From Deltaproteobacteria bacterium (GTDB taxonomy: Bacteria; Myxococcota; Myxococcia; Myxococcales; SZAS-1): 64,000 bases of DNA. Position 1 is the first letter of the stretch. Each line of letters begins with the position of its first letter. Of the stretch, positions 4,708 through 62,916 are shown in pieces. Position numbers and translations under genes: made by a program. The notes under the pieces were generated by a model. It was not told the DNA's origin and ran no database searches. It worked only from the letters and a program-made list of their open reading frames with translations. The stretch lies in assembly GCA_018266075.1 (NCBI GenBank), contig JAFEBB010000008.1, positions 62,001 to 126,000 on the forward strand, written 5' to 3'.

Positions 4708-6774
4708 TCAGCTGCCCACGCGACGCCGCCGCACCATCGCGCCGATCGCCGCGACGATCGCCAGGAGCTCCTCGCCCGGCACCGACGCGCAGCCCTTGCC
4801 CTTCACGGTGTTGCCGGTGGTCCCCGTCGAGCCGCCGGTGCTCGTCGCCGTGCCCTCGATGGTGCCGCCGGTGCTGCTCGCGCCTGCAGTGGTCGAAGCG
4901 GTCGTGGCGCCACCGCCGGTGGTGGATGACGTCGACGAGCTCGTGGACGTCGCGTGTCCGGTGGTGCCGGTGGTCTCGCTGCTCCCGGTGCTGGAGCCCG
5001 TGGTCGTCGACGACGCGGTCGACGCGCTGTGTCCCGAGGTGCCGGTCGTCGACGCCGCGGCGGTGGTCGAGGTGCCGGTCGTGCTGCTCGCGGTTGCGGT
5101 CGCGGTGGTCGTCGTCGACGTGCCGCTCGTGCCCGTGGTGCTGCTCGCGGTCGACGTCGACGTCGACGTCGAGGTGCTGGTGCTCGTCGTCGACGGCGGG
5201 TTGCAGTTGCAGCCGCCCGCGCAGGCCACGCTGTTGCTGGCCCAGAGGACGCTGCCGTTGGTGTCGTAGATGACGAGGTTGCCGTCGTCCTGAACGGCGA
5301 GCGACGCGCCGTTGTGGCCGCCCGTGGCGCTGTACCACATGGGGCAGCCCTCGGCGGAGTAGAGCACCAGGTTGCCGTCGCTCTGCATGGCCGCGGTGTA
5401 GCCGTCGGTGCCGCCGGTCTGCGTGTTCCAGATCGCGCCGCCGCCGTGCTGGTACACCACGAGATTTCCGTCGCCCTGCATCACCAGGTTGAAGCAGCCG
5501 CCGCACGCCGCCACCGAGTCGCCGCGCGCCAGGCCCGAGCCCGCAGGCATGCTGCCGCAGCCCGTGACCTTGCTGCCGACGGGGCCCGTGCCGCTCGACC
5601 AGAGCGGGTGTCCGCTCGCGCTGTAGACCACGAGGTTGCCGTCGTCCTGCACGGCGAGCGTGGCGCCCGGGTTGCCCCCGGTGTTGCTCGCCCAGATGGC
5701 GCAGCCCTGGCTCGAGTAGAGCACCAGGTTGCCGTCGCCTTGCATGATGAACGCGGCGCCGCCCTTGCCGTTGGTGTGCGTGTCGAAGAGCGGGTTGCCG
5801 TGCACGTAGAGGACGACGTTGCCGTCGGTCTGCATCACCAATCCGAAGCGGCCGTCGCAGCTGGTGGCGGTGTCGCCGGCGCCGAGGCCTTCGCCGGAGG
5901 CGAGCGCGCCGCAGTGCGCGGGTGCCGTCGTGCCGGGCGTGCCGCCGCTGCAGGCGCCGCCGCTGAGCTCGCTCGCCGAGCCCACGCCGTGACCGATGGC
6001 GCTGGTCGCGGTGCAGCCCACGGTGCCGCCGGCGAAGGCCGCGAGCGCGGCCGCGTCGCCGTTGAAGATGTCGAGGTCCACGTTGCCGCCGATGCCGGGC
6101 ACGCTGCCGCGATCGCTGTACTGCCACGCGGTCCAGTTGCTCCAGCCGCCGGGCATCGCCGGGCACACGCCGTTGTCGCAGTAGCAGTTGAAGTAGTCGG
6201 CCACCCAGAGCGCGTCGCCGCCGAAGCCCGACGCGCCGAAGCCCGACCACAGCCCGGGGCTGGTGTAGATGATGGTCTGCTTGCCGGTGCGCGCGGCGAT
6301 CTCGTTGATGAAGGCCTGCGCGTTCGCGGATGCGGTCGCCCCGCCCACGCCGTCGCTCACCTCCCAGTCGAGCATGGGCGGCAGGTCGCCCGCGCCGATC
6401 GTGCCCACGTAGCTCAGGTAGTAGTCGGCCTGTTGCGTGCCGTCGTCGCCGGGGTGGAAGAAGTGGTACGCGCCGCGCGCCACGCCGTTCGCCTGCATGC
6501 CGCTCCAGTTCGCGGGGAACGTCGGATCTCGGTAGCTCACGCCCTCGGTGGCCTTGGTGTACGCGAACTTGATGCCCGATCCCGCCACCGAGCTCCAGTT
6601 GATGCTGCCCTGGTAGCTGGAGACGTCGATGCCCGGCAGCGTGCCGCCCGCCGCGCAGACGGTGAGCAGGTCGCGCACGGTGTCGTCGTGCTGCTTGAGC
6701 GGCTGCGTGTCCTGGCCGCACGCGGCGAAGAGCGCGAGAACGGCCAGCAGCGTGGAGCGGGTCGAGGTCGTCAT
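4708..6774 (-). CDS. Secreted GH25 lysozyme-like lipoprotein with two bulb-lectin domains
   Basis: 688 residues. A lipoprotein signal ends at C19 (LALFAAC). Residues 47-245 form a glycoside hydrolase 25 domain: GIDVSSYQG with D50, KATEG, and the catalytic acid in MLDWEVSD (E138). GH25 enzymes cut the MurNAc-GlcNAc bond of peptidoglycan. Residues 285-395 and 405-515 are two B-lectin domains with six QxDGNxVxY mannose-site motifs in all. A Ser/Thr/Gly linker of about 135 residues follows. The C-terminus has C662, a hydrophobic stretch and VRRRRVGS, resembling a MYXO-CTERM surface-sorting tail. It probably serves predation, competition or wall remodelling at the surface. Having both a lipobox and a MYXO-CTERM-like tail is unusual. 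Confidence 0.9.
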   Translation of the reverse strand: MTTSTRSTLLAVLALFAACGQDTQPLKQHDDTVRDLLTVCAAGGTLPGIDVSSYQGSINWSSVAGSGIKFAYTKATEGVSYRDPTFPANWSGMQANGVARGAYHFFHPGDDGTQQADYYLSYVGTIGAGDLPPMLDWEVSDGVGGATASANAQAFINEIAARTGKQTIIYTSPGLWSGFGASGFGGDALWVADYFNCYCDNGVCPAMPGGWSNWTAWQYSDRGSVPGIGGNVDLDIFNGDAAALAAFAGGTVGCTATSAIGHGVGSASELSGGACSGGTPGTTAPAHCGALASGEGLGAGDTATSCDGRFGLVMQTDGNVVLYVHGNPLFDTHTNGKGGAAFIMQGDGNLVLYSSQGCAIWASNTGGNPGATLAVQDDGNLVVYSASGHPLWSSGTGPVGSKVTGCGSMPAGSGLARGDSVAACGGCFNLVMQGDGNLVVYQHGGGAIWNTQTGGTDGYTAAMQSDGNLVLYSAEGCPMWYSATGGHNGASLAVQDDGNLVIYDTNGSVLWASNSVACAGGCNCNPPSTTSTSTSTSTSTSTASSTTGTSGTSTTTTATATASSTTGTSTTAAASTTGTSGHSASTASSTTTGSSTGSSETTGTTGHATSTSSSTSSTTGGGATTASTTAGASSTGGTIEGTATSTGGSTGTTGNTVKGKGCASVPGEELLAIVAAIGAMVRRRRVGS
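4790..5205. repeat. Low-complexity Ser/Thr linker DNA with GTCGAC microrepeat
   Basis: This part of the lysozyme gene encodes a Ser/Thr/Gly linker and is internally repetitive (TCGACG/GTGGTC units, with GTCGAC three times near 5151-5170). It is a coding repeat prone to length change rather than a separate element. Confidence 0.6.
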
Positions 6775-55617: not shown

Positions 55618-56739
55618 GTGCGACGCGCTCTCGTCATCCTCATCGCCCTGGCCGCACCCTGGACGGCTCACGCCTACGACCTGGAGCAGGCCTCGGACGG
55701 CGCGCCGGTCCGATGGGCCAGCGGCTTCACGCTCTACGTGGATGCGAGCTCGCGAAACGTCTCCGCGAGCGACGTGATGGCAGCGGCCACAGCAGCCGGT
55801 GCGCAGTGGTCGAAGGCCGCAGCGGTTGACGTGGAGGTCCAGTCGGAGCCGCAGCATGGCGAGCCCGGCTACGACCCCGAGCACGCCGAGGGAAACCGGA
55901 GCGAGGTCATCTTCGTGGAGAGCGACTGGGAGTACGACATGGACGTGGCGGCCACCACGCTGGTCACCACCGACACCGTGACCCACCAGATCGTGGACGC
56001 GGACATCCTGGTGAACGAGGACCAGAACCGCTTCGACGTCCTCCCCGCCAACTCGAAGCCCGGGTACGGCCTGGAGCTCGACCTCCAGGGCTGCCTCACC
56101 CACGAGCTCGGGCACGCGCTCGGTCTGGCGCACAGCGCGGGCCACGCCGAGGCGACCATGTTTGCGGGTACGGAGGTCGGCGAGATCAGCAAGCGGGAGC
56201 TGGCGCCAGACGACGTGGACGGCGTTCAGTTCCTCTACGGCACGCCGGGGTCGCCCAAGACGCCCTGCGCGGCGGGCTGCACCGCGGGGCTGGGTCCCGA
56301 TGGCGTCGCGTCCCTCCTCGCCGCGCTCTCGGCGCTCGCGAGCGCCCGCCGCCGTCGCCGCGCGCGCATGCTCGCTTGCGGTTTGGTGTTCGCTGGATTG
56401 ACCCTCGCGGTGGCGGCGACGGCCTGGGCCGACGAGGGCTCACGTTCCCCGCGCCCGGCGGAGAACGTGGAGAAGGTGCTCGCGGGCCAGGTCACCCACA
56501 CCGTGTCCAGGTGGCAGGGCGGGCGCATCTACACCGACGTCGAGGTCGAGGTGGCGACCTGCTCCTCTGGCTCGTGCGATTCCGTGGAGACCTATCGCGT
56601 GCCCGGCGGGACGGTGGGTCGGCTCCAGCAGCAGCTCGGCGACGTCCACGTGCCCGCGCCCGGTGAGGATGTGCAGGTCTCCCTGGCGCGAGCGCGCGAC
56701 GGTCACCTCCGGCCGCTCGTCGCGGCGTCGCACCGCTGA
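55618..56739 (+). CDS. Matrixin-like metalloprotease fused to a second exported domain
   Basis: 373 residues from a GTG with GGAGG 5 nt upstream. Signal MRRALVILIALAAPWTAHA. Zinc site HELGHALGLAH (H162, E163, H166, H172) and the Met-turn-like ATMFAG mark a matrixin/metzincin protease. Residues 217-250 read like a MYXO-CTERM tail: two Cys, a hydrophobic segment and RRRRRAR. The frame then continues from M251 with a second signal-like stretch (MLACGLVFAGLTLAVAATAWA) and about 100 residues with a beta-sandwich-like pattern, two cysteines, and GQVTHTVSRWQGGRIYTDVEV. It may be a two-part precursor or a fusion by loss of a stop. Confidence 0.85.
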   Translation: MRRALVILIALAAPWTAHAYDLEQASDGAPVRWASGFTLYVDASSRNVSASDVMAAATAAGAQWSKAAAVDVEVQSEPQHGEPGYDPEHAEGNRSEVIFVESDWEYDMDVAATTLVTTDTVTHQIVDADILVNEDQNRFDVLPANSKPGYGLELDLQGCLTHELGHALGLAHSAGHAEATMFAGTEVGEISKRELAPDDVDGVQFLYGTPGSPKTPCAAGCTAGLGPDGVASLLAALSALASARRRRRARMLACGLVFAGLTLAVAATAWADEGSRSPRPAENVEKVLAGQVTHTVSRWQGGRIYTDVEVEVATCSSGSCDSVETYRVPGGTVGRLQQQLGDVHVPAPGEDVQVSLARARDGHLRPLVAASHR

Positions 56740-60747: not shown

Positions 60748-62916
60748 ATGCGAACCCTCGAACCCGATCCCTGCAACCCGAGCATCCTCCTCGTGGCCCT
60801 CATCTTCGCGGTCCTGACGACGTGCGGCTGTGGCGTCGCCGCCGATGAGCCGGTCGCAGGCGCTCCCAGCGAGCGCGCCCAGAGCGCGCTGGATGGCGAC
60901 GGCGGCGCCGATGGAGGCACGGAGCCGCAGGACGTTGCCCTCGCGCTGGATGGCGGCTGCACGGTGATCGTGGTGGCCGAGGACGGCGGGGCGACCCGCC
61001 CGATCGTCCCGGCGAGCGACGATCAGGAGCTCTCGGGCAGCGGCTGCAGCAGCGCCGGTGGACGGAGCTCAGTCCCCTTCGAGCTCCTGCTCCTGGCGGG
61101 CACCTGGACGCTGCTCCGTCGGCGCCGCGCAGCGTCGACGCTCGCGCTCGTGCTCGGCGTGCTGGCGCTGGGGGCGCGGGCAGAGGCGGCGAGCACGTCG
61201 ACCGCGGGCTTCGCCCTCGACCGCTTTGAGGCCGCGGAGCGCGGGAGCCACTGGTTCGCGGCCGATGATCTCGACCTCCAGGGCGAGCTGCGACCGACGC
61301 TCGGGTTCACGGCGGACTTCGCCGACGCGCCGCTCGTCATCCGCTCCCTGAAGACGGGCGCGACGGAGCCCCTCGTGGCGTCGCAGCTCACCACCCAGCT
61401 CGGGGCCAGCTTCGTCCTCGCCGATCGCGTGCGCTTCGGGTTGACCATGCCCGTGGTGCTCGACTCCCAGGTTGGCGCCGGGTCCCTGGGCGGCTACCCG
61501 TACGCGCCTGCGAGCGGCGTGGCCCCGGGCGACATGCGCGTGGCGGCCGACGTGCGCCTCCTCGGACGCGCCAACGGCCCGCTCGCGCTCGCCCTGGGTG
61601 CGCGGCTCTACGCTGCGACCGGCAGCACCGCCGCATTCGCGAGCGACGGCCGCTCCCGCGCGGGGCTGCGCGCTGCGGTGGCGGGGGCCCTGGGCCATTT
61701 CCACTACGCGCTCGCGCTGGAAGGCGTCGCCCGGCCCAGCGACCCCACCGCGACCGTGCCCCTGGGGAGCGGCGCGAACCTCGCTGCGGCGGTGGGCTGG
61801 CAGAGCGCGGGTGGTCGCGTGCGCATCGGGCCGGAGCTCATCGCTGCGCTCGACCGCTCCGCCAGCGCACTCGTGCCCAGCGCGCCGGGTGCGAGCGCGG
61901 AGGCGCTCCTCGGCGCGCATGTGCAGGTGGGCCCGGTGCTGCTCGGGCTCGGCGCAGGACCCGGTCTGTCCCAGGGCGTGGGCACGCCGCGCTGGCGCGG
62001 GCTGGTCTCCTTCGACTGGTCGCCGCCGCCCGAGCAGAAGCGGTCCATCGACACGGACGGCGACGGCATCGTCGACGCGCGCGACGCGTGCCCCGAGGTC
62101 GCGGGCGAGCCCGACCCCAACCCCGCGCGCAATGGCTGTCCGCACCCGCCGCCCGACCGCGATGGCGACGGCATCCCCGACGCCCAGGACGCCTGCCCCG
62201 ACCAGCCCGGCCCCGCCACCACCGACGCGGCGCGGAACGGCTGCCCCGTGCCCCCGGCGGATCGCGACCACGATGGCATTCCCGACGCCGAGGATGCGTG
62301 CCCCGACGTGTCCGGTCTGGTGAGCGGCGACCCGGCCCGCAACGGCTGTCCGCCGCCGGATCGCGACGGCGATGGCGTGCCCGATGCACAGGACGAATGC
62401 CCGGATACCCCCGGGAACCCGGAGCTCGGCGGCTGCCCCGGCTCCGATCGCGACGGCGACGGCGTCCCTGATCGCCTCGACAACTGCCCGGCGGAAGCGG
62501 GGCCGGCGTCGAACCAGGGCTGTCCCGAGAGCCAGCCGCAGATCGTGGCCATCACGCGCCAGAGACTGGTGATGCGCTCGTCCATCACCTTCGCCGGGAG
62601 CTCGGCGCGGCTGGAGTCGCAGAGCGAGGCCGTGCTCGACCAGGTGGCCCGGGTGCTCAAGAATCACCCCGAGATCGTGGCGGTGACGGTGGAGGGCCAC
62701 GCCGACGTGCATCCGCTCGCCGACGCGAACTTGAAGCTCTCGGTGGCTCGGGCCCAAGCGGTCATTCACTACCTGGCTGCGCACGGCGTGGCCCACGGCC
62801 GGCTCCAGGCGCGCGGCTACGGCTCCACCCAGCCGCTCGTCGACCGCGACGGCTCGGCGGAGGCCCAGGCGCAGAACAGCCGGATCGAGCTCCGCTTCTT
62901 TGCCGTGATGCGCTGA
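60748..62916 (+). CDS. OmpA-family TSP3-repeat outer-membrane protein with N-terminal MYXO-CTERM-like unit
   Basis: 722 residues. The first signal-like segment (SILLVALIFAVLTTCGC) is followed by an acidic domain. Then C100 with SSAGG, a hydrophobic run and LLRRRRA (about 124-127) read like a MYXO-CTERM tail. At once a second hydrophobic segment (STLALVLGVLALGARAEA) follows, which would be the signal of the main protein. Residues 150-430 form an outer-membrane barrel. Residues 432-588 hold several calcium-binding TSP3 repeats (DxDGDGIPDxxDACP). The C-terminal OmpA domain is at about 600-722, with EGHADVHP and SVARAQAVIHYL and the NSRIELRF end. The OmpA domain should bind peptidoglycan. Confidence 0.9.
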   Translation: MRTLEPDPCNPSILLVALIFAVLTTCGCGVAADEPVAGAPSERAQSALDGDGGADGGTEPQDVALALDGGCTVIVVAEDGGATRPIVPASDDQELSGSGCSSAGGRSSVPFELLLLAGTWTLLRRRRAASTLALVLGVLALGARAEAASTSTAGFALDRFEAAERGSHWFAADDLDLQGELRPTLGFTADFADAPLVIRSLKTGATEPLVASQLTTQLGASFVLADRVRFGLTMPVVLDSQVGAGSLGGYPYAPASGVAPGDMRVAADVRLLGRANGPLALALGARLYAATGSTAAFASDGRSRAGLRAAVAGALGHFHYALALEGVARPSDPTATVPLGSGANLAAAVGWQSAGGRVRIGPELIAALDRSASALVPSAPGASAEALLGAHVQVGPVLLGLGAGPGLSQGVGTPRWRGLVSFDWSPPPEQKRSIDTDGDGIVDARDACPEVAGEPDPNPARNGCPHPPPDRDGDGIPDAQDACPDQPGPATTDAARNGCPVPPADRDHDGIPDAEDACPDVSGLVSGDPARNGCPPPDRDGDGVPDAQDECPDTPGNPELGGCPGSDRDGDGVPDRLDNCPAEAGPASNQGCPESQPQIVAITRQRLVMRSSITFAGSSARLESQSEAVLDQVARVLKNHPEIVAVTVEGHADVHPLADANLKLSVARAQAVIHYLAAHGVAHGRLQARGYGSTQPLVDRDGSAEAQAQNSRIELRFFAVMR

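Follow-up and report, generated by a model that had tools for sequence, protein, structure and literature searches.

The window (the whole stretch of 64,000 nucleotides that was analyzed) contains on its forward strand, at 60748..62916, a fused ORF of 722 aa, in which a MYXO-CTERM protein is continued by a second protein made up of a signal peptide, a beta-barrel, TSP3 repeats, and an OmpA domain. The single frame runs from an ATG at 60748 to the stop at 62916 and passes through the junction of the two proteins without any stop codon. Because the third-position GC is coding-like in all of its parts (0.83–0.95, vs 0.70 in the stretch 3′ of the gene), the frame is taken to be real. The neighboring ORFs in the window, judged by their translations, encode signaling proteins.

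The N-terminal hydrophobic, signal-like stretch ILLVALIFAVLTTCGC (60748..60837, on the forward strand like all features of this gene), of either type I or lipoprotein type and modeled by AlphaFold2 as a low-confidence helix of residues 13–23, precedes the first product (60838..61035), which is small, acidic, and of low complexity over ~70 aa, with pLDDT mostly <50. A Pfam search of this N part (about 100 residues) gave no domain, and a homologue search with the N-terminal 105 aa gave none that was convincing. There follows an internal MYXO-CTERM-like tag (61036..61128), consisting of GCSSAGG with Cys100 (61045–61047), the hydrophobic helix FELLLLAGTWTLL, which is short with Glu and Trp inside, and RRRR (aa 124–127; 61117–61128), and then the signal-like ASTLALVLGVLALGARAEA. 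The latter is predicted to be a second signal peptide (61129..61188), the signal peptides throughout being judged by hydropathy and motif only, and coincides with a helix at residues 129–147 of the AlphaFold2 model; RRRR would form its n-region, and its cleavage site likely lies, to judge from the sequence, after ARA (Ala145) or AEA (Ala147).

The remainder of the protein, 595 residues after the Arg cluster, begins with a predicted outer-membrane beta-barrel of about 12 strands (residues 182–424; 61291..62019), in which most blocks of the AlphaFold2 model have a pLDDT >90, followed by five stretches of TSP3 calcium-binding repeats (62050..62538; PF02412, E 3.5e-17, 62.2 bits) and an OmpA peptidoglycan-binding domain (62545..62913; PF00691, E 7.9e-18, 65.1 bits), both exceeding the Pfam gathering scores. 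The model, calculated with an alignment from 33 relatives, places the OmpA domain at residues 600–720, where Foldseek finds OmpA-family C-terminal domains, and helices at residues 13–23, 112–118, and 129–147, leaves the first 90 residues disordered, and separates the second signal-peptide helix from the first barrel strand by about 35 residues. The barrel resembles FapF, an amyloid-secretion channel, by fold only (target-normalized TM about 0.6 in Foldseek, ~11% identity). The order of parts claimed by a sequence-only reading of this gene, with the tag in the middle of the protein and an exported OmpA/TSP3 protein behind it, is thus borne out both by direct reading and by the TSP_3 and OmpA matches. 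At 46% identity, C36 of the same genome is the closest paralogue, and its N terminus is an ordinary signal peptide at the position homologous to the second signal peptide of the 722-aa protein.

Internal tags in the window and in the whole genome

The 722-aa protein has the TIGR03901 signature with its invariant Cys as well as the hydrophobic helix followed by an Arg-rich cluster, whereas its score (12.6 bits, for C8:123036–123128, equivalent to window 61036–61128) lies below the curated cut-off of 20 bits and its tag is internal instead of C-terminal. A second junction, matched at 13.0 bits, is present at 56.3 kb within the gene at 55618..56739 on the forward strand, encoding a matrixin protease (PF00413, E 5.5e-10), a MYXO-CTERM tag, a second signal peptide, and an exported protein of ~100 aa; the Cys is encoded at 56278, RRRRR at 56347–56361, and the predicted second signal peptide at 56368–56430. 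This gene has a fused homologue, L278, in the genome G030 (L278/L209), and the two halves are separate but nearby in other relatives. In several relatives, the small C-terminal domain of this fusion forms a gene of its own, upstream of a matrixin-type protease nearby.

When all 201 window frames of ≥150 aa were examined with a strict junction detector (Cys, helix, R-cluster, helix, cleavage motif), which like the hydropathy scan treats signal peptides and second membrane helices alike, exactly two sites were found, identical with the two junctions described above. Shuffled frames gave a mean of 0.055 sites per set and never reached two sites in 200 runs, so that a chance origin of the window junctions is rejected, in agreement with the earlier claim that two such cases in the window go beyond chance. 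An ordinary C-terminal MYXO-CTERM protein is also encoded in the window, its 691-aa frame ending with KGCASVPGEELLAIVAAIGAMVRRRRVGS (4720–4794, reverse strand).

The myxosortase MrtX is encoded in the genome (NF040593, 234 bits vs the cut-off of 180). Searching the whole genome with TIGR03901 gave 74 matches; from the 66 viewed in context, plus those in the window, about 53 tags were counted as ordinary C-terminal ones and six as internal, the latter distributed over five ORFs and in all six cases followed by a signal peptide within a few residues. Besides the two window genes, these ORFs encode a Kelch protein joined to a DUF2380-like protein (C3), a Cys-rich protein joined to a TIG-domain lipoprotein (C41), and a 2534-aa chain (C105; L009:3304–10908 in G000) with two junctions and three proteins in series, namely a CARDB/He_PIG protein, a second CARDB/He_PIG protein, and a Cys-rich lipoprotein (LGTGC). 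Pieces related to this triple ORF occur in two overlapping ORFs at L199 in G003. Seven other loci with internal TIGR03901 matches (L041, L049, L052, L053, L054, L058, and L060) were discarded, being in the wrong frame or without the Cys motif.

Fused and split forms in related genomes

When 39 genomes from the order were searched with the 722-aa protein, many very long ORFs with the same terminal barrel–TSP3–OmpA unit were found, and these ORFs carry the same internal junction when read in sequence. About 60 more fused junctions were identified in related genomes by such reading. In the alignment of 21 junctions, no column is invariant except that of the tag Cys, and the profile derived from it detects full-length, stop-free junctions in most families of the order; at E 1e-7, it matches 107 of the 193 genomes of the phylum, some of which supplied the profile, with a few of the matches spanning one half only or containing a stop. 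About 40 further junctions were read in sequence, and two Bacteroidota genomes searched as a small control gave no junction. The rarity of such junctions, named beforehand as a finding that would tell against the sequence-only reading, does not hold for the order.

In a set of 65 junctions, the Arg cluster and the second hydrophobic core are separated by a median gap of four residues, AxA follows the second helix in 53 (23 expected from shuffles), and either AxA or a lipobox follows nearly all second helices. The second halves fall into several classes, including barrel–OmpA proteins, He_PIG/CARDB proteins, Cys-rich or TIG lipoproteins, and β-propeller proteins after amidases. At L200 and L208, an N-acetylmuramoyl-L-alanine amidase is fused via the junction to beta-propeller (PD40) proteins, with a lipobox in two of three. 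The small genome G003 (3.8 Mb; loci L187, L191, L195, L198, L199, L211, and L213) has 14 matches to the profile, of which many are full junctions, and may belong to a fusion-rich lineage.

Sister species show purifying selection on the junction at the protein level, the dN/dS values across it being 0.034 (L174/L175), 0.28 (L095/L098), and 0.37 (L093/L094) in three sister pairs. Among 26 species of one genus, the adhesin/barrel–OmpA pair is fused in six (G033, G141, G097, G105, G115, and G128) and split in 20, where either a stop is followed by a new ATG ~30 bases on or the frames overlap. A maximum-likelihood tree of these species requires at least three switches between the two forms, all forced by well-supported branches. 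Among relatives of the 722-aa gene, the MYXO-CTERM gene is likewise found separate, lying just upstream at L125, where 122 nt separate its stop from the start of the OmpA gene, and overlapping the OmpA gene at L092. The possibility, also raised against the sequence-only reading, that relatives have the parts as separate genes is hence correct in that the genes are often separate, but the fused form exists too, with repeated switches; the coexistence of both forms therefore supports two products rather than refuting them.

Proposed cleavage into two products

The analysis shows that the ORF is a fusion, that the fusion is conserved, that fused and split forms have switched, and that an MrtX gene is present. 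The most probable reading, held with moderate confidence, is that the 722-aa ORF is a two-product secreted polyprotein, cut by myxosortase after the Cys and by signal peptidase. The N-terminal signal would export part 1 until the MYXO-CTERM helix halts it in the inner membrane, with RRRR staying cytoplasmic; the same RRRR would act as the n-region of the second signal peptide, one Arg cluster thereby serving both signals, and the second signal peptide would restart export to bring the barrel–TSP3–OmpA protein into the periplasm. This topology is proposed because the tag helix ends in cytoplasmic Arg, where the next helix starts, to end with AxA outside. MrtX would cut after the probably lipidated Cys100, yielding part 1 as a surface lipoprotein-like product, and signal peptidase I would cut near Ala147, setting the barrel protein free to enter the outer membrane. 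A link of ~35 residues is too short to span the periplasm uncut, with the barrel in the outer membrane and the leader in the inner membrane, so that cleavage at the second signal peptide is all but necessary. The two products would be made jointly in a 1:1 ratio, in analogy to the overlapping traA–traB genes but in fused form. We infer both cleavages, the lipidation, the stoichiometry, and any partnership of the products. In Guo, Haft and Wall 2025, MrtX is described as cleaving the MYXO-CTERM protein TraA, for which the Cys is needed (PMC11980579).

Substantial weight is given to a rival, unlikely as we judge it, in which part 2 is the only useful product: only the second cut happens, the N part with its tag is a degenerate leftover to be degraded, and the OmpA protein is made with an unusually long leader. 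Such a reading is favored by the weak tag score and by the nature of part 1, predicted as disordered with low confidence and, being tiny, of low complexity, and without homologues, perhaps without function. It is opposed by the retention of the Cys, the helix, and the Arg cluster, by the coding-like composition of part 1, and by the tag being kept at the five other junctions of the genome. Considerably less probable is an uncut chain, in which an inner-membrane hairpin links part 1 and the barrel–OmpA part as a single envelope protein. Ordinary two-helix membrane proteins also have the look of a helix–RRRR–helix hairpin, from which neither the detector nor the hydropathy scan tells a signal peptide apart; nevertheless, AxA or a lipobox stands after nearly all second helices, some second halves are lipoproteins, the distance from the hairpin to the barrel is short, and the halves are encoded as two separate proteins in relatives. 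Separate translation of the halves from an internal start, or a fusion arising from assembly error or fresh loss of a stop codon, is very improbable: although the halves are separate genes in many homologous pairs and in-frame start codons occur within some other junctions, the window junction has no usable ATG, GTG, or TTG in frame, by which internal re-initiation there is rejected, and error or random stop loss is rejected by the purifying selection on fusions in sister species, by the presence of fusions in genomes that are complete as one contig, G033 for example, and by the several junctions per genome, six in one genome being too many for errors.

The two-product reading, and with it the earlier proposal of a polyprotein or coupled-export design, is supported by the four more junctions in three further ORFs of the genome, by the dozens in relatives, and by the selection at the junction. 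The fused two-protein ORF appears to be a genuine means of producing protein pairs that has evolved repeatedly. Evenly balanced in our judgment is the broader proposal that the tandem of MYXO-CTERM tag and signal peptide with a shared Arg cluster is a general myxobacterial polyprotein cassette, giving 1:1 pairs in one translocation event, with lineages switching freely between fused and split forms. On this proposal, the cassette would sit between many exported proteins unrelated to each other (adhesin and outer-membrane barrel; Ig repeats, Ig repeats, and lipoprotein in a triple series; amidase and lipoprotein; protease and small protein; Kelch and DUF2380), and each pair would consist of a surface-anchored protein with an outer-membrane or periplasmic partner. 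To our knowledge, secreted polyproteins of bacteria are few. If cut as proposed, the chains would represent a recurring means by which the members of a surface protein pair are synthesized and exported in a coupled manner, and for many ORFs annotated as a "giant adhesin" the number of predicted products would double; the natural fused/split pairs within one genus make the function directly testable.

Comparison with known systems

The 722-aa gene is of an already known kind, since the same architecture, here with a reduced first part, has been published for MXAN_5598 of Myxococcus xanthus. Guo et al. call internal MYXO-CTERM tags rare and name this protein, suggest a gene fusion for it in comparison with the TraA/TraB overlap (PMC11980579, PMC3325183), and propose that its N-terminal part is processed and anchored (PMC11980579). 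Like the 722-aa ORF, MXAN_5598 has, as presented there, an internal MYXO-CTERM tag and then a beta-barrel and OmpA in one ORF, but a large adhesin takes the place of the N part of about 100 aa, its neighbors are ftsA/ftsZ instead of signaling genes, and the accessible text describes no second signal peptide directly after the Arg cluster (PMC11980579). Four loci in related genomes (L093, L095, L096, and L099) are probable orthologues of MXAN_5598, because an FtsZ motif adjoins the gene as in that account (PMC11980579); they are giant adhesin–barrel–OmpA fusions with totals of ~2200 to 5080 aa and a second half of ~600 aa throughout. No description was found in the open-access literature of the frequency of the tandem, its occurrence in unrelated gene pairs and in a triple series, the shared Arg cluster, or the fused/split switching.

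The outer membrane exchange pair TraA/TraB similarly consists of a MYXO-CTERM protein and then a barrel–OmpA type protein, and traA and traB are translationally linked, with ORFs overlapping by four bases (PMC3325183). However, these are two ORFs vs one here, and the PA14/Cys-repeat receptor part is absent here; the TraB model NF033763 matches the 722-aa protein with 155 bits, best over residues 529–715, not reaching the cut-off of 700. That a sorting signal can work in the middle of a protein is illustrated by HVO_0405, an ArtA substrate of Haloferax volcanii, a fusion with a C-terminal-type sorting signal mid-protein that was shown to be cut there in an ArtA-dependent manner (PMC7157517), although the archaeal sorting enzyme and signal are unrelated to myxosortase. 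A mid-protein sorting signal is also indicated by the name of the NCBIfam family "midcut-by-XrtH" (NF033207), which belongs to the exosortase XrtH system and, of the two window genes, matches only that at 55618–56739, with 10.8 bits vs the cut-off of 45.
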